This document shows positions 8,778 to 64,000 of a stretch of 64,000 nt of DNA, piece by piece. The first letter of the stretch is position 1; each line of letters opens with the position of its first letter. The notes beneath the pieces are model-generated. The model was not told the DNA's origin. It saw only the letters and a list, made by a program, of their open reading frames with translations, and did no database searches. The stretch is from Gemmatimonadota bacterium. GTDB lineage: Bacteria; Gemmatimonadota; Gemmatimonadetes; Longimicrobiales; Gaopeijiaceae. Location of the stretch: positions 1 to 64,000 of the forward strand of contig JAUIEJ010000010.1 of the NCBI GenBank assembly GCA_030428885.1. Reading direction: 5' to 3'. The position numbers and the translations under genes were made by a program.

Positions 8778-9311
8778 ATGGCCCCTCCAGCCCTGAACGT
8801 CGACGAGCTCGAGGAGCGCCTCACCGGGCTCCACGCCGACAGCTTCGGCTGGGCGTTGAGTTGCTGTGGCTGGAACGACGCAGAGGCGGAGGACGTGGTG
8901 CAGACCACCTACGTGAAAGTGTTGTCGGGGCAGGCCCGCTGGTCGGGTCGGTCCAGCTTTCGCACGTGGCTGTTCGGCGTCGTGCGCCTCACGGCCCTGG
9001 AGCAGCGGCGCCGGGAAGCGTCGCTGGCCCGCCGGGCCGAACACGCGGTGCGGGAGTGGGACACCGTGCGGGATCCGGACCCCGGACCCGACGGCGCGTT
9101 GCTCGACGACGAGCGGGCCCGTCGACTGCGGGCCGCCCTGGACGAACTCCCCGACCGGCAGCGGGAGGTGGTCCACCTGGTGTTCTACCAGGGGCTCACC
9201 GTGGCCGAGGCCGGCGAGGTCATGGGCGTGTCGGTGGGATCGGCTCGTACGCACTACCACCGGGGTAAGGAACGACTGCGGACCCTGCTGTCGCGGGAGG
9301 AGATCACATGA
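8778..9311 (+). CDS. ECF RNA polymerase sigma factor
   Basis: 177 residues. Sigma region 2 carries the usual acidic motif (WNDAEAEDVVQTTYVKVL) and RWSGRSSFRTWLFGVVRL. Region 4 has ELPDRQREVVHLVFYQGLT and the helix-turn-helix AEAGEVMGVSVGSARTHYHR. This is an ordinary anti-sigma-controlled ECF factor. The next gene starts inside its stop (ATGA) and the third gene does the same, giving a tight operon of sigma, anti-sigma-like membrane protein and periplasmic Spy/CnrX-like protein. It probably directs an envelope or metal stress response. Confidence 0.9.
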   Translation: MAPPALNVDELEERLTGLHADSFGWALSCCGWNDAEAEDVVQTTYVKVLSGQARWSGRSSFRTWLFGVVRLTALEQRRREASLARRAEHAVREWDTVRDPDPGPDGALLDDERARRLRAALDELPDRQREVVHLVFYQGLTVAEAGEVMGVSVGSARTHYHRGKERLRTLLSREEIT

Positions 9312-48264: not shown

Positions 48265-48834
48265 TCAGGTGCCGCCGTCGATGCGGTCGGCCAGCCAGGC
48301 CCGGGCGAAGCGCCAGTCCCGCTTCACCGTAGCCTCCGAGACCTCCAGCGCGGCGGCGGTTTCCTCCACCGACAGCCCGGCGAAGAACCGGTATTCCACG
48401 ACCCGGGCCTGGCGGGGGTTGGCCGCGTCCAGGTCCGAGAGGGCCGCATCGAGGGCCAGGACCGAGTCCGCCGAACGAACCGACCCGTGCAGCGCCTCAT
48501 CGAACGAGACCGGGACCTGGCCCCCGCCCCGCTTGATGGCGGAGCGTCGCTCGGCGGCGTTCACGAGGACCTGGCGCATGGCCCGGGCGGCCACCCCGAA
48601 GAAGTGCTTCCGGTCGGTCCAGTCCAGGGCCCTGGACGGCGTGAGCTTGACGTAGGCCTCGTGGACCAGGGCCGTGGTGTTGAGGGTCTCCGACCCGCTC
48701 GACCGTCGGACCGACCGGGCGAGCTTCCTCAGTTCGCCGTAGACGACCTCGAACAGCGCGTCGAACGCCTCCGCGTCGCCCTCGCGGGCGCGGTGGAGGA
48801 GCCGCGTGACCTCGTCGGACCTGGAGGCGGACAT
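48265..48834 (-). CDS. ECF-type sigma factor (kinase-linked, TIGR02999-like)
   Basis: 189 residues. Region 2: FDALFEVVYGELRKLARSVR, then SETLNTTALVHEAYVKLTPS, where ordinary ECF factors have an acidic D-A-E-D stretch; here it is N-T-T-A. Then DRKHFFGVAARAMRQVLVNA. Region 4: ARVVEYRFFAGLSVEETAAA and LEVSEATVKRDWRFARAW. No anti-sigma gene is present; instead the gene sits 71 bp downstream of a TPR serine/threonine kinase on the same strand. In Vibrio ECF43 sigma factors (EcfP with kinase PknT), a Thr in this position is phosphorylated to switch the factor on, which is the likely model here. Confidence 0.9.
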   Translation of the reverse strand: MSASRSDEVTRLLHRAREGDAEAFDALFEVVYGELRKLARSVRRSSGSETLNTTALVHEAYVKLTPSRALDWTDRKHFFGVAARAMRQVLVNAAERRSAIKRGGGQVPVSFDEALHGSVRSADSVLALDAALSDLDAANPRQARVVEYRFFAGLSVEETAAALEVSEATVKRDWRFARAWLADRIDGGT

Positions 48835-48905
48835 GGGTGGGCGGGAGCCGGAGGGGAATTCGAATCGGGAATTGGACCCCGTTCGGGCGTGGCCGCAAGC
48901 CGGCG

Positions 48906-51458
48906 TCAGTCCCCGCCGCCCGCCCCTCCCGCCGCTTCCGATTCCCGGATGGCCCGCACCGCGTCGGCATCGGCACCCCGTCCCGCGCGCCGATAGGCTT
49001 TTTCCAGTTCCAGGAGCGTCGCCGCGCGACCCCGGGCCGCTGCGCTGGTGGGCGGGCTTCCGGGAGGATTGGCGTCGAGAAGGCGCCGGAGCGCGGATTC
49101 CGCCTCTGCGTGCCGACCGGCCCGAGACCACCCCCGGGCGACGCCCCGCTCGGCCACCTGCCGGGCGGCGGACGCGGCGGGGCCGGCGGTGGACAGGAGC
49201 TCCAGGGCGCGCCCGTAGGCGGCCTCGGCCGCGGCGCTGTCGGCCACGGCGTCCAGGGCGAGGGCCAGTCCGGTGAGGACCGGGGCGAGGGCCGGGGCCT
49301 CGCCGCCGTACAGGGCCTCGGCCACCTCCACCGATCGTCGGGCGTGGACGAGCGCCCCCTCGGCGTCGCCGGACCGGCGCCGATGCTGGGCGAGATTGGC
49401 GAGCACCACCAGCAGCAGTCGACCGCCGTTCTCGGCGGCTTCGGCCCGGGAGACGGCGAGACGGTAGAGAGAATCGGCCCGTGCCGTCTCGCCCCGGGTG
49501 CTCAGCAGGTTGGCGTATTCCGTCAGGAGGGCGATGACGGGGGTGGCGCCCTCGGGGGTCCGCCCCGCGTGGAGTCGCAACGCCTCGGCGAAGGCGCTGT
49601 CGGCCGCCTCCAGGTTCCCCACCGTGCGATGGAGAACGCCCAGGTTCGTCCACCCCACGGCGGCCTGCGCGTCGTCTCCCCGCAGGGCCCGGAACATCTC
49701 GAGCCCCTCCCGCTGATCCGCGATGGCCCCGTCCAGGTCACCCGTCTCGTGCCGAAGTCCGGCCCGCAGGTACAGGGCCCCGGCGAGGTCGGTGGGGGGG
49801 CCGAGTCGGCGCAGGGCGGGAACGGCGTCGTCCAGGGCCGCCGCCGCCGTGGTGAACTCGTCCCGATACAGCGCGCTCCGGGCCTGGAGCACCCGAACCC
49901 GCGCCGCCGTGGTGTCCCGCCCCCCGGCCCGGGCCCCGGCGAGGGCCGCGGCCAGCAGGGTGTCGGCGCCCTCCCAGTCGCCCAACTCCACGGCGACTTC
50001 GCCCAGGGAGCGGACCACTTCGGGGTCGGCCTCCGCCCCGGACGAGGCCGACAGGGCGAGACTCCGGGTCCAGAGGTCCCGAGCCTGTTCGTAGTTCCAG
50101 AGGGAGAAGTGGGCGCGGCCCAGGGAGAGCAGCAGGCGCGCCTGGACCTCGGGGCGGTCTTCGAGCTCGGTGAGCGCCCGCTCCGTCGACCGGTCCAGGA
50201 GATCGACCACCCGCAGAGTATCCGCGCCCGGGTCGCCGCCCACGGGGTTCACCGACTGGAAGGTCCCCTCGAGAAACGACGCCAGGGCTTCGGCCCGGTC
50301 CCGTTCGACCCGGGCGAGGTTCCGCTGCTGGACCACCACGGTCAGGCCCGCCACCAGGGCGGCGACGCCGGCCGTCAGCCCCGCCACCGGCCGCCAATGG
50401 CGACGAAGAAACCGTCCGGCGCGGTAGACGCGGGTGGCCTTCCGGGCTGCCACGGGCCGGTTGTCCAGGGCCCGCTGCAGATCGTCCACGAGGGCGTCCA
50501 CGGTGGGATACCGCGCCCCCGGATCCTCCTCGAGGGCCCGCAGGAGGATCGCGTCCAGGTCCCCCCGAAGTGCGGGGCGCCCCGACGCGGCGCTGGGTCG
50601 AAGCCCGGGCCGACCCGAGGGCCGCGCGCCGGTGAGGAGTTCGTGGAGCACCACGCCCAGCCCGAAGACGTCGGTGGCGGTGGTGACGGGGGCTCCGGAG
50701 GATTGCTCCGGCGCGGCGTAGGCCGGCGTCAGCGCCACGTCGCCGACCCGGGTGTGATCCTCGGCGGGCCCGTCCAGGAGTTTGGCCACGCCGAAGTCCA
50801 GGAGCTTCACCTCGCCCCGGTCGTCGACGAAGATGTTCGACGGCTTCAGGTCGCGGTGCACGACCAGGTTGCGGTGGGCGAACTGGACGGCTCCACACAC
50901 CGCCAGGAAGAGACGGATGCGAGCCCGGAGTCCCCATTGCCGCTCGTCGGCCCAAAGCGTGATGGGCTTCCCGTCCACCACCTCCATGACCAGGTAGGGG
51001 CGGCCGTCATCGGCGATTCCCCCGTCGAACAGCGCCGCGATGTTGGGGTGTTCCAGGTCGGCCAGGATCTGGCGCTCCGAACGGAACCGACGCAGCACCT
51101 CGTCGGAGTCCATGCCCCGCTTGACCAGCTTGATGGCCACGCGCCGTCGGTAGGCCCCGTCGGATCTCTCCGCCAGGTAGACGGAGCCCATGCCGCCGCG
51201 ACCGAGGACGCCCAGGATCCGATACGGCCCGATGGTCTCGGGTGAATCGTCGGCGTCGTCGAGGAGTTCGGCCACCAGGGCCTCGAACGGTGAGTCCAGG
51301 GGCGTGGTCGTCTCGCCGTCCCGATGGAGGAGGGACCGCAGGCGACCCTCGAGCTCGCCGTCTCCGCCGCACGCCTCCCGAATGGCCTCCTCCCGCTCAC
51401 CCGCGGGCCGATCCACCACGCGATCGAAGGCGGCGTTGAGACGGGAGAGGTCGGTCAT
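48906..51458 (-). CDS. Serine/threonine protein kinase with periplasmic TPR domain (sigma-linked, 1)
   Basis: 850 residues. Residues 1-75 are a short helical pre-domain; the kinase domain is ~76-340: GRGGMGSVY at ~87, RRRVAIKLVKRG, catalytic VHRDLKPSN (~200), LLDFGVAKLL, APEQSSGAPV. A single membrane helix follows (~354-373: PVAGLTAGVAALVAGLTVVV), then about 470 residues of TPR pairs (RPEVQARLLLSLGRAHFSLW, AAVGWTNLGVLHRTVGNLEA, and so on). The kinase would act in the cytoplasm and the TPR part in the periplasm. It precedes the ECF sigma factor in the same direction, so sigma phosphorylation is the likely role. Confidence 0.9.
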   Translation of the reverse strand: MTDLSRLNAAFDRVVDRPAGEREEAIREACGGDGELEGRLRSLLHRDGETTTPLDSPFEALVAELLDDADDSPETIGPYRILGVLGRGGMGSVYLAERSDGAYRRRVAIKLVKRGMDSDEVLRRFRSERQILADLEHPNIAALFDGGIADDGRPYLVMEVVDGKPITLWADERQWGLRARIRLFLAVCGAVQFAHRNLVVHRDLKPSNIFVDDRGEVKLLDFGVAKLLDGPAEDHTRVGDVALTPAYAAPEQSSGAPVTTATDVFGLGVVLHELLTGARPSGRPGLRPSAASGRPALRGDLDAILLRALEEDPGARYPTVDALVDDLQRALDNRPVAARKATRVYRAGRFLRRHWRPVAGLTAGVAALVAGLTVVVQQRNLARVERDRAEALASFLEGTFQSVNPVGGDPGADTLRVVDLLDRSTERALTELEDRPEVQARLLLSLGRAHFSLWNYEQARDLWTRSLALSASSGAEADPEVVRSLGEVAVELGDWEGADTLLAAALAGARAGGRDTTAARVRVLQARSALYRDEFTTAAAALDDAVPALRRLGPPTDLAGALYLRAGLRHETGDLDGAIADQREGLEMFRALRGDDAQAAVGWTNLGVLHRTVGNLEAADSAFAEALRLHAGRTPEGATPVIALLTEYANLLSTRGETARADSLYRLAVSRAEAAENGGRLLLVVLANLAQHRRRSGDAEGALVHARRSVEVAEALYGGEAPALAPVLTGLALALDAVADSAAAEAAYGRALELLSTAGPAASAARQVAERGVARGWSRAGRHAEAESALRRLLDANPPGSPPTSAAARGRAATLLELEKAYRRAGRGADADAVRAIRESEAAGGAGGGD

Positions 51459-51623: not shown

Positions 51624-53468
51624 ATGGGCATGGGGACAGCACACGCATTGATGGTGGCGGTCGTACTTCAGGGTCCGCCCACGGGCGAACTCTGCCGGAT
51701 CGAGTACGAGGAGGTCGTGGGGTCCGGGACGGCGGTCCGGACGACCCCCGTGAACCCGAGCGAGACGAAGGCCGTCGGTGACGTGGTGCTTCGGATCGTC
51801 AACAAGGAGTCCCGCCCTCTGGAAGCGCGCCTCCTGCCTCCCGCCGGCCCCCCACGCACCGTGACGCTCCAGGGCTTCGGCGCCACCGACCCCCCGGTCC
51901 TCCAGTACGTCGGCAACTGGACCCTCCAGTCGGTCCACTGCCCCAGCGCCTACCCCAGCGCCCCGCACATGTGGGGGACCGGAGAACCCCTGGAGGCGGT
52001 GCGCCGGGAGTTCCAGTTGAGCGTCGAGGACGCCGCCGTGCTGATCCGCAACGACTACGACGACGTCGAGGCGCTGCAGCACGACCGGGGGGCCCTGCAG
52101 GAGCTCATGAGCGCGTTTCCCGAGTACGCGTGGTCGGCTTCGAGCGCCGCGAACCTGCTCCACACCACCCAGTATCCCGCCTCGGCCGCGGTTCACGGAC
52201 TGCTCCGCAACGACCTCGTCTCCGCCGGGGACTTCCGGGGCGAGATGGGACAGGCCATGGCCGTCACGCGCCAGGCCGGCTACTCCGTGGCGGACGTTCT
52301 CGAGGGGTCGAGACGGGCGGTCCGCACCCTCCAGTACTGGAACGCCCCGGTCTACGAGACCTGGCTCGACGCCATGCCGGCCCAGACCCGGTACCTCCTG
52401 GAGGCGGGCTTCGCCTACGCCGACATCGCCCCGGCTCTGACGGCCGTGTACGCGCCCTCGGTGGACGACTTCGTCGGAGCGTTCTTCTACCAGGCGTGGC
52501 ACGCTCGGGGCAGCGACGCATCGGGCCGCACCGCCAAGGCCCTCCAGGCGACCTTCGGCCTCGACGAGGTGGGCGTGGCGAGGGCCCTCCTCGATCGCGC
52601 CATGACGGCGGACCTCCCGGGCGGACCCGCCCAGCCGTCGTGGGCGCCGCCGTACTGGGAGGGATCCCGGGGAGAATTGCGGGACGGCCTGTACGCCAGC
52701 GCCCTGCAGGGGTGCGCGTGGCTCGGACGCGCGGTCCTGGAGAAGTGGAGCGACCGCCCGCTGCCGGTGAACGCCACCCCCCAGCAGGTCCAGTCCATGA
52801 GGGCGACCTGGAATCGGGTGCCCGACGACGATCTGGACGAGGTGCTCGCCGACGTCCAGGGCGACCTGCCGGCCACGGCGGAGTGCCTTCTGGGCGCCTC
52901 CTTCGGACCGGCCCGGATCCTGGCGTACGCCGATGCCCGGGTGCCCACCCCCGACCACCGACGCCTCGCCCCGGGGTTCCGGAGCTTCGGGATCCAGTGC
53001 GGCCCCCTCATCGACCTGCTCATGGCCTCGGACCGGGGCACGGGGGAGGTATGGGGCTGGCTGCGAGAGGCGGCCTACCCGGACATGGAGGGCTGCCTGG
53101 ACGTGTTGTCGGCCCGGACCGGCACCTTCCTCATGGACTACTACGTCGCCGACCTCGGGCCCGCCGTGGCGGCCCGGGCGGCCCGTCGCCACGGCTGGGT
53201 CTTCGCCGAAACGGCCGACGCCATGGACTGGTTCCGCGCTCCCGAGCCCCGCTTCGGCGCCGTGGTGGACGCCTACCGGGTGTCGGCCGACGCCGCGCTC
53301 CGGTATCTGCGGTCGTTCGCCCGGGACCAGGGCCGGGAGACCGTGTTCGACTACGGCCGGTACCTCCTGGAGGCCTTCGACCCCCGAGCGGCCTGCGACG
53401 CCGTGACCGGGGCCGAATGGTCCCCCCACCGCGCGCCGGAGTGCCGGAGCGGGCGCGGGGGGCGGTAG
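51624..53468 (+). CDS. Large hypothetical protein with helical repeats
   Basis: 614 residues from ATG 51624 (GAGGAG 6 nt upstream; GTG at 51618 also in frame). A short hydrophobic N-terminus (ALMVAVVLQG) may be a weak export signal. Residues ~25-115 look like a beta domain (VVLRIVNKESRPLEARLLPP). From ~120 come loose helical units: SVEDAAVLIRNDYDDVEALQ, RQAGYSVADVLEGSRRAVRT, LEAGFAYADIAPALTAVYAP, TFGLDEVGVARALLDRAM, DDLDEVLADVQGDLPATAEC. These follow a G-(F/Y)-x-x-x-D-(I/V)-A-x-A-L pattern seen in some exported alpha-solenoid proteins. No family recognised and no catalytic motif seen. Divergent from the TPR kinase. Confidence 0.7.
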   Translation: MGMGTAHALMVAVVLQGPPTGELCRIEYEEVVGSGTAVRTTPVNPSETKAVGDVVLRIVNKESRPLEARLLPPAGPPRTVTLQGFGATDPPVLQYVGNWTLQSVHCPSAYPSAPHMWGTGEPLEAVRREFQLSVEDAAVLIRNDYDDVEALQHDRGALQELMSAFPEYAWSASSAANLLHTTQYPASAAVHGLLRNDLVSAGDFRGEMGQAMAVTRQAGYSVADVLEGSRRAVRTLQYWNAPVYETWLDAMPAQTRYLLEAGFAYADIAPALTAVYAPSVDDFVGAFFYQAWHARGSDASGRTAKALQATFGLDEVGVARALLDRAMTADLPGGPAQPSWAPPYWEGSRGELRDGLYASALQGCAWLGRAVLEKWSDRPLPVNATPQQVQSMRATWNRVPDDDLDEVLADVQGDLPATAECLLGASFGPARILAYADARVPTPDHRRLAPGFRSFGIQCGPLIDLLMASDRGTGEVWGWLREAAYPDMEGCLDVLSARTGTFLMDYYVADLGPAVAARAARRHGWVFAETADAMDWFRAPEPRFGAVVDAYRVSADAALRYLRSFARDQGRETVFDYGRYLLEAFDPRAACDAVTGAEWSPHRAPECRSGRGGR

Positions 53469-59131: not shown

Positions 59132-59715
59132 GCGATCCCTCGGAAGTCACCCGCCTCCTGGTCGCCATCAACGACGGTGAGGACGACGCCCGGGCCCGCC
59201 TCGTGCCCCTGGTCTACGACGAACTCCGCATCCTGGCCGAGAGCTACATGCGTCGGGAGCGCCCGGGACACACGCTCCAGCCCACGGCCCTGGTCAACGA
59301 GGCGTGGATGAAGCTGGCGGACCAGCAGCGGGTGGAGTGGAAGGGACGGGCCCACTTCTTCGGGATCGCCGCCCAGGCCATGCGCAGGATCCTGGTGGAT
59401 CACCACCGGCGGCGCAGCGCAGCCCGGCGGGGCAGCGGCAAGCACGTCACCCTGGTGGAAGACGCGGCGGACACCTTCTCCGACCCCCTGGACTTCATCG
59501 CGCTGGACGGCGCCCTGGACGAGCTCGCGGAGATGGATCCCCGAGCGGCCCGGATCGTGGAACTGCGGTTCTTCGGAGGGTTGAGCGTCGAGGAGACCGC
59601 CGAGGTCATGGACGTCTCCACCCCCACGGTGAAGCGGGACTGGAGAACTGCGAAGGCGTGGCTCTACCAACGGCTCGGAGCCGCACCGGGCCGGGGCGAC
59701 GACGAATCCGCGTGA
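59128..59715 (+). CDS. ECF-type sigma factor (kinase-linked, TIGR02999-like)
   Basis: 195 residues. Region 2: LVPLVYDELRILAESYMRRE, then GHTLQPTALVNEAWMKLADQ, again with Q-P-T-A in place of the acidic motif. GRAHFFGIAAQAMRRILVDH and RRRSAARRG follow. Region 4: ARIVELRFFGGLSVEETAEV, MDVSTPTVKRDWRTAKAWL. No anti-sigma gene. It is sandwiched by four-base overlaps between the winged-helix membrane protein (ATGA) and a TPR kinase (GTGA), a stronger coupling than in the module at 48-51 kb. Confidence 0.92.
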   Translation: MSDPSEVTRLLVAINDGEDDARARLVPLVYDELRILAESYMRRERPGHTLQPTALVNEAWMKLADQQRVEWKGRAHFFGIAAQAMRRILVDHHRRRSAARRGSGKHVTLVEDAADTFSDPLDFIALDGALDELAEMDPRAARIVELRFFGGLSVEETAEVMDVSTPTVKRDWRTAKAWLYQRLGAAPGRGDDESA

Positions 59716-62249
59716 CGGGCCCTTCGCGGTGGGAGCGCACCAAGGAGCTCCTGGACCGCACGCTCGACCTCCCCCGCGACGCCCGGGAGGCGTTTCTCCG
59801 CAAAGCCACGGCCGGCGACCCCGAGTTGTTCGACGAGGTGTGGGCGCTGGCCCGGGCCGCCGAACCCGATCTCGACGCCCTGGAGCACCCGGCGGCCCTC
59901 TTTCTGGAGGGAGAGGGGGGAGACGAGGATCTGGAGGAACTGGAGGGCCTGGAGGGCCGGCAGGTCGGCCCCTACCGCCTGACCCGGGTTCTGGGGCGAG
60001 GGGGGATGGGGATCGTCTACGAGGCGGAACGCACCGGGGAAGTGGGCGGCACCGTGGCGGTGAAGCTCATCAAGCGTGGAATGGACAGCGCCCTGGTGTC
60101 GCGGCGGTTCCACCGGGAGCGGAGGATCCTGGCGCGGCTGACCCACCCCCACATCGCCCATTTCCTGGACGGCGGGGTCACCGACGATCACCGCCCCTAC
60201 TTCGTCATGGAGCGGGTCGAGGGCACGCCGGTGACCGCGTTCTGCGCCCGGCACGAGATGTCGGTGGAGGGGCGGATCCGCCTCTTCCTCCAGGTGCTGG
60301 AGGCCGTGGGGTTCGCTCATCGGAATCTGGTGGTGCACCGGGACATCAAGCCCACCAACATCCTGGTCCGGGAGGACGGGGTGGTGAAGCTCCTGGACTT
60401 CGGCGTGGCGAAGGTCCTGGGAGAGCCCGAGGGAGGGGACGCCACCCTGACCCGCCTGGGCGGGCGGGTGCTGACGCCCTCCTACTCCAGCCCCGAGCAG
60501 ATCCGGGGCGAGCCCGTGTCCACCGCCTCGGACATCTACTCCCTGGGCGTGGTCCTCTATGAAATCCTCGCCGGGCGGCCTCCCTTCGAGCTCGACACGG
60601 CCTCCATGGCGGAAGTGCAGCGGGTCGTGAGCTTCGAGGAGCCCACGCGCCCGTCCGACGCGGCGGGGCGGAAGTCCGGGAGCGCCGGCCTCACCGCACC
60701 GGCCGCCACCGCGCCCCTGGCTCGCCGGAAGCTCTCCGGCGACCTGGACGCCATTCTGCTGAAGGCCCTCCGGAAGGAACCCGAGCGGCGGTATGAGACC
60801 GCCATGGCGTTTCACGACGACCTCTGCCGGTTCCTGGATCAACGGCCGGTTCGGGCCCGCCGCGGCACCCTGGGCTACCGCACCGAACGGTTCCTGCGAC
60901 GGAACCGGGCGTGGGTGGCCGCCGGGGCCGTGGTGGCGGCGGTGGTGACGGGCGGAGCCATCTGGGGCGGGCGGCAGGCCGCCGAAGTGCGCCGTCAGGC
61001 CGCCCTGGCCGAACAGCGGGTCGACGACGTGCGGACCCTGGTCAACACCCTGCTCTTCGAGGTCCACGACGCGGTGGCCGCCCTCCCCGGCTCCACGGGA
61101 GCCCGGTTGCTGATCCTGGAGCGGGCCCACGAACGCCTCGACGCCGTCACCGACGCGCCTCCCGACGACCCGGCCCTCCTCATGGAGCTGGCCGAGGCGT
61201 ACCGCCGCCTCGGCGAGGTCGAGGGACGCCCCACCGGGCCCAGCCTGGGCGACCTCACCGCGGCCCGGGGGAGCTTCGAGGAAGGGCTGGAGCTGGCCCG
61301 CCGGGCCGTGGCCGCCGACTCGAACCACCTGGGGCGGCTCCGCTCCCTGGGCCTGCTCCACGAGCGCCTCGCCGGCACCCTGGCCTTCGCCGGCGAGGTC
61401 GAGGAGGGGGTCGAGCACTCGCGGCAGGCCCAGGCCATCTACGAACGGATCGCCGACGCCTGGCCCGACTCGGCTCGCCACCAGCTCACCGCGGTCATCG
61501 GACGCATCAACCTCAGCGACTTCACGGGCCACCCGAGCTTTCCCAATCTCGGGCAGGTGGACGAGGCGGAGGCCGGGTACGAGGCCGCCCGGGACCGCCT
61601 GGGCCGCCCGCCCCTGGCCGACGAGGGGTCGTACGGAGTGGTGCGGTACCGGGGGCTGGTGGAGGAGCGACTGGCCCGGATGCTCCGGGTGCGGGGAGAC
61701 CTGGAGGGGAGCATGGCCCGCTACCGGGCGTCGCTGGAGGTGCGGCGGGCCCTCTACGAGGACTACCCCGGCGACGACGACGCCTGGCGCGACCTGGGGG
61801 TGACCCACCAGAACCTGTGCAGCGTGGCCCAGGGGCTTGGGCGATTCGACGAAGCCCGGGTCGATTGTGACCGGGCCCTGGAGGTCTACACGGCGCGCTG
61901 GCGAGCCGACTCCCTCAATGCCCAGACCCTCTCCGACCTGGCCTCGGTCCACGATTCCTACCAGGAGCTCCACCTCTCCCGGGGCGACACGGTCCAGGCC
62001 CTGGGGCACCTCGCCGAGATGGGCCGCTGGGCCGAGCGGCGGCTGGATCGGGACCCCACCTCCCTCCCGCCCCGCCGGACCCTTCTGGACGCCCTCCTGA
62101 CCCGCGGCCTGATCCTGGCCCGCCGGGGCGCGCCCGTCCCCGATCTCGACGAGACCCTGGCCCTCTCCGACGGGCTGTCCGCCCAGGGCCATCTCTCCGA
62201 CGACGACCTCCGACGCACCGACGAGCTCCGCCGCCTCACCGGGGGGTGA
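59712..62249 (+). CDS. Serine/threonine protein kinase with periplasmic helical/TPR domain (sigma-linked, 2)
   Basis: 845 residues; GTG start overlapping the sigma stop. Kinase domain ~85-380: GRGGMGIVY at ~94, GTVAVKLIKRGMDSA, VVHRDIKPTN (~207), LLDFGVAKVL (~227), YSSPEQIRGEPV, FLDQRPVRARRG at the end. Membrane helix ~401-420 (VAAGAVVAAVVTGGAIWGG). The C-terminal 425 residues are helical TPR-like pairs (LLMELAEAYRRLGEVEGRP, LRSLGLLHERLAGTLAFAGE, AWRDLGVTHQNLCSVAQGLG). A kinase for the preceding sigma factor is the natural reading. Confidence 0.92.
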   Translation: MTGPSRWERTKELLDRTLDLPRDAREAFLRKATAGDPELFDEVWALARAAEPDLDALEHPAALFLEGEGGDEDLEELEGLEGRQVGPYRLTRVLGRGGMGIVYEAERTGEVGGTVAVKLIKRGMDSALVSRRFHRERRILARLTHPHIAHFLDGGVTDDHRPYFVMERVEGTPVTAFCARHEMSVEGRIRLFLQVLEAVGFAHRNLVVHRDIKPTNILVREDGVVKLLDFGVAKVLGEPEGGDATLTRLGGRVLTPSYSSPEQIRGEPVSTASDIYSLGVVLYEILAGRPPFELDTASMAEVQRVVSFEEPTRPSDAAGRKSGSAGLTAPAATAPLARRKLSGDLDAILLKALRKEPERRYETAMAFHDDLCRFLDQRPVRARRGTLGYRTERFLRRNRAWVAAGAVVAAVVTGGAIWGGRQAAEVRRQAALAEQRVDDVRTLVNTLLFEVHDAVAALPGSTGARLLILERAHERLDAVTDAPPDDPALLMELAEAYRRLGEVEGRPTGPSLGDLTAARGSFEEGLELARRAVAADSNHLGRLRSLGLLHERLAGTLAFAGEVEEGVEHSRQAQAIYERIADAWPDSARHQLTAVIGRINLSDFTGHPSFPNLGQVDEAEAGYEAARDRLGRPPLADEGSYGVVRYRGLVEERLARMLRVRGDLEGSMARYRASLEVRRALYEDYPGDDDAWRDLGVTHQNLCSVAQGLGRFDEARVDCDRALEVYTARWRADSLNAQTLSDLASVHDSYQELHLSRGDTVQALGHLAEMGRWAERRLDRDPTSLPPRRTLLDALLTRGLILARRGAPVPDLDETLALSDGLSAQGHLSDDDLRRTDELRRLTGG

Positions 62250-62314: not shown

Positions 62315-64000
62315 ATGATCGGCACACAGATCGGGCGGTACCGGATCGACAGCGAGCTGGGTCGAGGAGGCATGGGCGTCGTCTATCGCGGCACCCAGGT
62401 CACCCTGGACCGCACGGTGGCGATCAAGATGCTGCCGGCCCATCTGGCCGACGGCGACAACCGGGAACGCTTCCGCCGTGAAGCGCTGACCCTGGCCCGC
62501 CTGGCCCATCCCAACATCATCCACATCTACGACGTGGAGGATCAGGACGGCCACTCCTTCATCATGATGGAGCACGTGGGCGGCGGATCCCTGGGCGATC
62601 AGATGTCTCCCGGGACCACCTTCTCGGCTGCCCGGTGCGTCGAAATCTTCTCGCCGATCCTCTCGGCGCTCCACGCCGCCCACCTGGCCGGCATCGTCCA
62701 CCGGGACATCAAGCCCGACAACATCCTCTTCACCGCCTCGGGCCGCCCCAAGCTCACGGACTTCGGCGTCGCCCACATGCGGGACGCCGGCAGCAAGACC
62801 CGCACGGGGGTCATGCTGGGCACGCCGTACTACATGTCGCCCGAGCAGGCCCAGGGCCGGCGCGTCACCGCCGCCGCCGACCTCTACGCCGTGGGTGTGG
62901 TGCTGTACGAAATGCTGAGCGGCGGGGTGCCCTTCACCGGCGAAGACCCCCTCTCGGTGGCCCTGAAGCACGTTCAGGAGCCCCCCCGGCCCCTGGCCGA
63001 ACTCCGCCCGGACCTCCCGGCCGAACTCTGCGCCCTGGTCCATCGGGCGCTGGAGAAGGACCCCACCGCCCGCTTCCACTCGGCGGCGGCCATGCAGGAC
63101 GCCCTGGAGTCGGGGTCGTGGGCCCCGGGACGCACCACCCTGGACCCGGATTCGTCGGGGGCCCGGGTGGCGGTCCCGATCCTGCCCGAGGTTCCGGCCC
63201 CCGAAACCCCCGAGCCCCCCGCCGCCGTGTCCGGCGCCCATGATGCGCCCTCCACGTCCGTCGGGGCCGCCACCGCCGCGGGGCCGCCTTCCCTTCCCCC
63301 CCAGCCCGCCCCGGCGTCGTCGTCGGGGACGGGGGACGCCGTTCCCTCGGCGCCCTCCGGAGCCGGATGGGCGACGGGGATGGGCGACACGGGCCGCCGC
63401 ATGGGCGCCTGGCTCGCCCGGCCGGCATGGCGGGGCCTGCCCATGGCCTTCTGGGCCGGGGCCGCGGCGCTGGCGCTGGCGCTGGTGTGGATCGGCGCCG
63501 ACGCCCTGGCGGGCCCCAACCCCGCCTCAGGAGACTCCTCGGAGGAGACCGAAGCCGTGCCCCCGGTGCAGGACGGCGCTCAGGCGTCTCGGGAAACCCC
63601 TCGGGTGCCGGTGGCGGGCCCGTCGTCGGGCGGATCCACCGGGCGCACCTCCAGCCCGGCCGACCCCCGGACCCGGCCCGAACTCTCGGACGAGGAGCGG
63701 GAGGCCCTCCGGACCCTGGCCCGGGGAGGCGAGACACAGGCGAACCCCGCCGACGACCTCATTTCGGACACCGCCCGGACGCAGACCATCATCGACCGCA
63801 TCGATGCGGTGGCCGACGACGACGGTCCCGTGACCCTCGACGACCTTCGGGACCGCGATCCCGATCCTGAACCGGATCCCGACCCCACCCCCACGTCCCG
63901 GGAGCTCGTCCAGAGCCTGGTGGAGCGGCAGATCCGGGCCGTGGAGACGGCCAACCGGGCCCTCTTCCTCCAGGACTTCCACCCCGACGTCCGGGACGCC
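62315..64000 (+). CDS. Serine/threonine protein kinase, partial (cut by window end)
   Basis: 562 codons present, still open at 64000. ATG 62315 has AGGAG 7 nt upstream. Kinase domain ~8-270: GRGGMGVVYRGTQ, VAIKMLPAHL, IVHRDIKPDNILF, LTDFGVAHMRD, GTPYYMSPEQAQG, YAVGVVLYEMLSGGVPF. This is a PknB/Pkn-type domain, different from the two TPR kinases, which have an N-terminal helical pre-domain. A Pro/Ala/Ser-rich linker leads to one membrane helix (~375-393: AFWAGAAALALALVWIG), then an acidic periplasmic part (RDRDPDPEPDPDPTPT) and the start of a new helix (VERQIRAVETANRALFLQDF). 65 bp after the previous kinase, so possibly the same operon. Confidence 0.9.
   Translation, partial: MIGTQIGRYRIDSELGRGGMGVVYRGTQVTLDRTVAIKMLPAHLADGDNRERFRREALTLARLAHPNIIHIYDVEDQDGHSFIMMEHVGGGSLGDQMSPGTTFSAARCVEIFSPILSALHAAHLAGIVHRDIKPDNILFTASGRPKLTDFGVAHMRDAGSKTRTGVMLGTPYYMSPEQAQGRRVTAAADLYAVGVVLYEMLSGGVPFTGEDPLSVALKHVQEPPRPLAELRPDLPAELCALVHRALEKDPTARFHSAAAMQDALESGSWAPGRTTLDPDSSGARVAVPILPEVPAPETPEPPAAVSGAHDAPSTSVGAATAAGPPSLPPQPAPASSSGTGDAVPSAPSGAGWATGMGDTGRRMGAWLARPAWRGLPMAFWAGAAALALALVWIGADALAGPNPASGDSSEETEAVPPVQDGAQASRETPRVPVAGPSSGGSTGRTSSPADPRTRPELSDEEREALRTLARGGETQANPADDLISDTARTQTIIDRIDAVADDDGPVTLDDLRDRDPDPEPDPDPTPTSRELVQSLVERQIRAVETANRALFLQDFHPDVRDA

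Follow-up and report, generated by a model that had tools for sequence, protein, structure and literature searches.

An undescribed N-terminal domain of ECF43-type kinases that coevolves with region 4 of the partner sigma factor

Within the 64,000 nucleotides of Gemmatimonadota DNA analyzed here (the 'window'), an ECF sigma factor is encoded beside a transmembrane Ser/Thr kinase that begins with a three-helix domain; this domain is undescribed, and it constitutes the new part of the analysis, in that the first 50 residues of the kinase appear, from their covariation with the partner protein, to grip the DNA-binding end of the sigma factor. The system is quite probably an ECF43-type sigma switch that is activated by a kinase and carries its own domain for partner selection; the kinase would dock on sigma region 4 and then phosphorylate Thr54 of the sigma factor. 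The activation step itself is supported by homology, has been published in outline and is not new, and it is by this known mechanism that the 18 related sigma factors of the bacterium are probably switched on, each through phosphorylation by its partner kinase.

Many paralogous kinase-sigma pairs exist in this organism, in Tahibacter soli (27) and in several planctomycetes, and no explanation was found in the literature for how a kinase recognizes the sigma factor that belongs to it. The interface between the N-terminal domain and sigma region 4 offers an answer on pairing at the level of individual residues, a marker by which partner kinases can be spotted in genomes, and a route to matching orphans, and a grip by the kinase N terminus on the DNA-binding end of the sigma factor would explain how cross-talk is avoided among many near-identical pairs.

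The sigma factor, its kinase and the ECF43 precedent

Studies of ECF43 factors such as EcfP of Vibrio parahaemolyticus, the partner of PknT, demonstrated that these proteins carry an STTA or QTTA motif instead of DAED, that the neighboring kinase phosphorylates the second Thr of the EcfP motif, with the added charge enabling binding to polymerase beta', and that EcfP has no intrinsic activity and depends on its kinase (PMC8999054). In Xanthomonas, PknS phosphorylates EcfK at the equivalent T51 and additionally in the linker between sigma2 and sigma4; an EcfK T51A variant retains function, and T106, a Thr of the linker, matters too (PMC13147305), so that the corresponding T54 of the present system need not be the sole site. 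The features of the window that correspond to these elements are as follows.

48265..48834, minus strand: ECF sigma factor, ECF43-like, 189 aa (TIGR02999, PF07638)
48673..48675, minus strand: Thr54 codon, predicted phospho-acceptor in sigma2.2 (N52-T53-T54-A55), assigned by aligning the motifs, with T54 falling on the second Thr of STTA/QTTA in EcfP/ECF43 (PMC8999054, PMC13147305)
48676-48678, minus strand: Thr53 codon
48906..51458, minus strand: transmembrane TPR Ser/Thr kinase, 850 aa (PF00069, E 2.9e-40; TPR_12, E 4.2e-19)
51312..51458, minus strand: three-helix N-terminal domain, kinase residues 1-49, predicted sigma4-docking module (AlphaFold, PknS match, counts, coupling)
50436..51224, minus strand: kinase catalytic domain, residues 79-341
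50331..50387, minus strand: the only predicted transmembrane segment, residues 358-376 (19 residues with a hydropathy of 2.26)
49194..50141, minus strand: TPR region at the C terminus, about residues 440-755, presumed to act as an extracytoplasmic sensor (PF13424, PF07719, PF13181)

The sigma factor scores 204.5 bits against TIGR02999 (cut-off 126.15) and matches PF07638 with an E value of 1.2e-53; its best named match is L059, at 55% identity, from a Gemmatimonadetes MAG. The initial annotation had reported E-T-L-N-T-T-A-L-V-H-E-A in place of the acidic residues of classical ECF factors, and that string is present in this coding sequence as E49 to A60, within residues 47-61 (G-S-E-T-L-N-T-T-A-L-V-H-E-A-Y), with N52-T53-T54-A55 standing where classical ECFs have acids. 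The factor that had been chosen for comparison, at 8778-9311 on the plus strand, does carry the acidic motif A-E-A-E-D-V-V-Q in its sigma2.2. The TPR kinase lies just upstream of the sigma gene, as had been described, in the same direction and across a gap of 71 bp, and a separate anti-sigma gene is indeed missing, with 0 anti-sigma Pfam domains among the scanned flanking genes. The catalytic residues of the kinase (K110, HRD 201-203 and DFG 221-223) are intact and are invariant in 98 relatives. The 20 residues before the transmembrane segment include 8 basic and 0 acidic ones; the predicted membrane segment would place the kinase domain inside and the TPR region outside the cell.

The proposed analogy with ECF43 systems thus agrees with a TIGR02999/PF07638 sigma factor, a QTTA-like motif (TTA) in sigma2.2, a neighboring kinase of the Hanks type whose catalytic residues are intact, and the lack of an anti-sigma gene, and this gene content and motif point to phospho-activation at T54 as the likely mechanism. 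The window system shares with EcfK and PknS of Xanthomonas citri (ECF43) the sigma2.2 Thr and a transmembrane Hanks kinase, while differing in its motif (NTTA, with no acid, as opposed to QATE in EcfK), in its C-terminal TPR region and in its gene order. With EcfP and PknT (ECF43) it shares the STTA-type motif, the acquisition of charge by phosphorylation of the second Thr being a feature of EcfP (PMC8999054). The order of kinase before sigma is rare, being found in five of the 71 adjacent pairs of the phylum sample, as opposed to 59 with the sigma gene first. The module is neighbored by genes for a fatty-acid desaturase, a pyridoxamine-oxidase-like protein and an amidohydrolase, and by an opposite-strand gene for an unassigned protein of 614 aa. 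The open reading frame of the 614-aa protein (51624-53468, plus strand), which gave no match in a Pfam scan, is divergent from the kinase gene and is a possible target of the module.

Conservation of Thr54

Thr occupies position 54 in all 18 TIGR02999 sigma factors of the genome, in 75 of the 81 sigma factors of a phylum sample (41 genomes, with the same 18 included) and in 76 of 80 from other phyla, with Ser in two of the remaining four. The latter come from 12 genomes chosen via hits in several phyla; the tallies are exclusive of 80 loci that had been found by a Thr-containing pattern, and through which the 12 genomes were reached. Conservation of Thr at position 54 is no chance. Position 53, the other Thr stressed in the initial annotation, is P, A or T in homologues, with no preference among them, so that T54 is the relevant Thr; T50 is conserved as well.

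In the phylum sample, all six sigma factors that have lost T54 carry an acid at position 52, 54 or 55, as opposed to eight of the 75 that retain it (p = 9e-6), and these losses represent six separate changes on the best tree, of which only two fall on supported branches. The pattern was not repeated in the sample from other phyla (one of four), and the swap of Thr for acid, considered as an evolutionary proof of the charge logic, is accordingly suggestive only. It is relevant to a reading in which T54 is a structural residue at the start of a helix and regulation acts on expression of the sigma factor, not through phosphorylation: T54 is also kept in S05, S08 and S10, sigma factors that have no neighboring kinase, yet the homologous Thr is phosphorylated in both EcfP and EcfK, and this reading, which also leaves the acids that accompany the six losses of the phylum sample to be accounted for (if not those of the second sample), appears highly improbable. 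As a separate observation, D, A, N or R replaces Thr54 at four loci (L176, L171, L161 and L193), where another position of the motif holds an acid; each locus adjoins an intact kinase with the N-terminal domain, and the four are candidates for constitutively charged ECF43-type factors.

The N-terminal domain as a marker of partner kinases

An AlphaFold model of the kinase places helices at residues 2-14, 19-30 and 34-49 (block means of 80-97 pLDDT), followed by a weaker helix at residues 58-66. The domain is characterized by a motif of ~50 residues, RW...LF..AL..P...R..FL..AC..D..LR.EV..LL, and the profile used to count it (A1) spans 48 columns and ends at residue 48, with helix 58-66 outside. 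A Pfam search with three such domains found no family at E<=1, anti-sigma families included. Among all solved chains, the best match to the window kinase is PknS (9EED), by far its closest solved relative, with an E value of 9e-58 as opposed to 2e-38 for the next; the alignment covers the N-terminal region, and PknS, which carries the same domain, is the sole PDB sequence to do so. That region of PknS is invisible in the 9EED crystal and predicted to be helical.

In the genome of origin, a search gave 28 kinase matches at E<=1e-15, and 15 of the 19 kinases with the domain lie within 3 kb (<=3 kb) of a TIGR02999 sigma gene, as opposed to 1-2 of the nine kinases that lack it. Across 41 genomes of the phylum, 84 matches to the domain accompany 83 to the sigma family, with a correlation between genomes of r = 0.99 (0.98 when the genome of origin is removed), while total kinase count follows sigma count with r = 0.35. 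The 142 kinases of 16 genomes that lack the sigma family yielded zero matches to the domain. In the 12 genomes from other phyla, which had been picked for having at least one ECF43-type sigma factor, the two counts are correlated with r = 0.97 (for example, 27 and 26 in Tahibacter soli, and 11 and 11 in a planctomycete).

Among 80 named loci from several phyla, a kinase is found within the stretch in 69; the domain is recognized at E<1e-3 in 65 of 72 kinases there, by eye in three more, and in another reading frame of draft sequence in one, and each of the three kinases without it is a second kinase, lies at a distance or is encoded on the opposite strand. Sigma factors with no such kinase within 5 kb number nine of 81 in the phylum sample and 16 of 96 in other phyla, and some kinases with the domain stand alone. 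The domain is a near-invariant, rather than strictly invariant, companion of ECF43-type sigma factors.

Coevolution of the domain with sigma region 4

The surface of the sigma factor that covaries with the kinase N terminus is a single additional feature of the window.

48283..48420, minus strand: sigma region 4 face, residues 139-184 (N139, Q142, R175, F176, A179, D183), coupled to the N-terminal domain (direct coupling analysis of 173 and 249 pairs, hold-out)

Mutual information with a reduced alphabet gave pairs between the domain and region 4 at the top, and mostly variable columns of the kinase domain at lower ranks; region counts from that measure were uninformative for this reason, and direct coupling analysis (DCA) was used instead. 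Mean-field DCA of the sigma factor and the N-terminal domain, conducted on 173 directly adjacent pairs with 60 shuffles of the pairing, gave five couplings of 1.73-2.88, above the shuffle maximum of 1.66. In every one of these couplings (sigma-kinase, in window numbering: A179-F11, Q142-N8, R175-D47, F176-F11 and D183-S42), a region 4 residue is paired with a residue in helix 1 or helix 3 of the domain. Analysis of the sigma factor against the kinase domain gave a top value of 1.28, below the maximum of 1.31 from its 11 shuffles; the shuffles ignore relatedness, and the kinase domain, with the same relatedness, yields no coupling.

A hold-out of 76 new pairs from four further groups, collected after the five couplings had been fixed, ranked them 1, 8, 25, 26 and 940 of 8832, with no coupling of the hold-out by itself above its shuffle maximum. 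When all 249 pairs were combined (a small sample for mean-field DCA), the top ten couplings all linked the domain to region 4, and eight exceeded the shuffle maximum. Sigma distances likewise track distances between N-terminal domains (0.39) more closely than those between kinase domains (0.20), and the distance correlation within the genome of origin alone is not significant (11 pairs). Of 138 charged pairs at sigma position 183 and kinase position 39, 132 combine opposite charges (+/- in 127, -/+ in 5, +/+ in 0 and -/- in 6), and the window pair itself displays the rare reversed form, D183/R39, beside R175/D47. This coevolution is that of a constrained surface pair, and by its nature it does not give an order of events.

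These results bear upon whether the system is simply an ECF43 pair in which T54 is phosphorylated while the N-terminal domain serves folding, dimerization or autoregulation, with specificity arising from the kinase domain or from co-expression. Phospho-activation has been published with no N-terminal role (PMC8999054, PMC13147305), and the PknS N terminus is not visible in its crystal, both of which would suit that account; it is nonetheless very unlikely, given that kinases of genomes without the sigma family lack the domain, that the coupling of the domain goes to region 4 and replicates, and that the kinase domain shows none above shuffles.

Recovery of partners among paralogues

In the genome of origin, a partner score built on ten contacts, with couplings trained without that genome, ranked the true kinases of 15 sigma factors at 3.9 of 19 on average (p = 5e-5), a result that is not fully blind because the ten contacts had been chosen with pairs of that genome included (11 of 249). 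The window pair ranks 2 of 19, though its order of kinase before sigma never occurs in the training pairs; the pair S18-K21 fails, at rank 16 of 19. In eight other genomes, for which the genome under test was excluded from the choice of contacts and of couplings alike, p values ranged from 0.0002 to 0.033 in each, and the mean normalized rank of the true partner was 0.17, as opposed to 0.5 by chance. The contacts between the domain and region 4 thereby recover true partners in nine of nine genomes.

The kinase of S18 (L045 9030-10730, plus strand) displays an unusual order, with the N-terminal domain followed by several hydrophobic segments and then a C-terminal kinase domain. The genome of origin also encodes four kinases with the domain and no neighboring sigma factor (C18:191574, C18:126242, C23:137691 and C17:39626) and three TIGR02999 sigma factors with no neighboring kinase (C15:209852, C1:55418 and C4:152934), and these are likely partners in trans. 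For both of the orphan sigma factors S08 and S10 the top-scoring kinase is K15 (C23:137691), itself a lone kinase, with K11 (C18:126242) in second place for S08 and in fourth for S10.

Relationship to anti-sigma factors and a proposed mechanism

In class I anti-sigma domains, a helical bundle binds sigma4 with its helices 1 and 3, in most cases at the last sigma4 helix, and Arg-Asp contacts are frequent (PMC7406223, PMC5358783). The kinase N-terminal domain resembles those of RseA, RsiW and ChrR in being a small bundle that would use helices 1 and 3, its contact being predicted by coevolution, and appears to work on sigma4 like a class I domain. It differs in having no sequence match to them and in being fused to a kinase; the sigma4 residues coupled to it are near, rather than identical to, those of class I contacts. 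A further trait of class I domains is a fourth helix that binds sigma2, together with inhibition of the sigma factor. A fold comparison returned generic three-helix bundles only, in which the lack of anti-sigma folds proves nothing, and with neither a sequence match nor more than a generic fold match the domain is not filed as a class I member. The domain, which escaped the initial annotation, is likely to bind the sigma factor at region 4 and could to some extent stand in for the 'missing' anti-sigma factor; its interface with sigma4 offers a reason why ECF43-type systems do without an anti-sigma gene.

These likenesses raise the question of whether the domain is primarily an anti-sigma factor, sequestering sigma4 at the membrane until a signal or phosphorylation frees the sigma factor, with charge at T54 secondary. 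The absence of a separate anti-sigma gene would fit such a role, as would the use of helices 1 and 3 by class I domains as well, often with Arg-Asp contacts on the last sigma4 helix (PMC7406223, PMC5358783), while the published behavior of EcfP, inactive on its own and dependent on its kinase (PMC8999054), and the failure of the domain to match anti-sigma families in sequence both weigh against it; it is judged unlikely, though a serious contender. A broader and tentative proposal, somewhat easier to credit and still improbable on balance, is that the N-terminal domain of all ECF43-type kinases is an anti-sigma factor and a docking site in one, which holds sigma4 at the membrane and picks the paralogue, the same molecule then phosphorylating sigma2.2 and releasing the active factor. 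If true, a single protein would act both as the kinase and as the anti-sigma factor.

The favored mechanism, that of a kinase-activated switch with partner selection, would proceed as follows: (i) the sigma factor, in which the sigma2.2 acids for holding the beta' clamp of RNA polymerase are absent, would for that reason be inactive as made; (ii) the membrane kinase would grip its region 4 via helices 1 and 3 of the N-terminal domain; (iii) a signal sensed by the extracytoplasmic TPR region would cause the tethered kinase domain to phosphorylate Thr54; and (iv) the charge thus added would allow the sigma factor to bind core polymerase.

Additional sigma-kinase loci

A second module is found in the window at 59143-62249 on the plus strand, where sigma factor S03 (LQPTALVNEAW) is followed by kinase K06, which has the N-terminal domain; kinase K02, which lacks it, comes after K06 at 62339-63100. 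Contig C23 (265 kb) carries six of the 18 TIGR02999 sigma factors, at 48, 59, 76, 99, 106 and 179 kb. Sigma factor S12 (L035 8111-9996, plus strand) has a kinase with the domain upstream and a short kinase without it directly downstream, and in genome G006 the locus L201 (3011-4955, plus strand) is a broken pair, in which sigma factor and kinase are both frame-disrupted.
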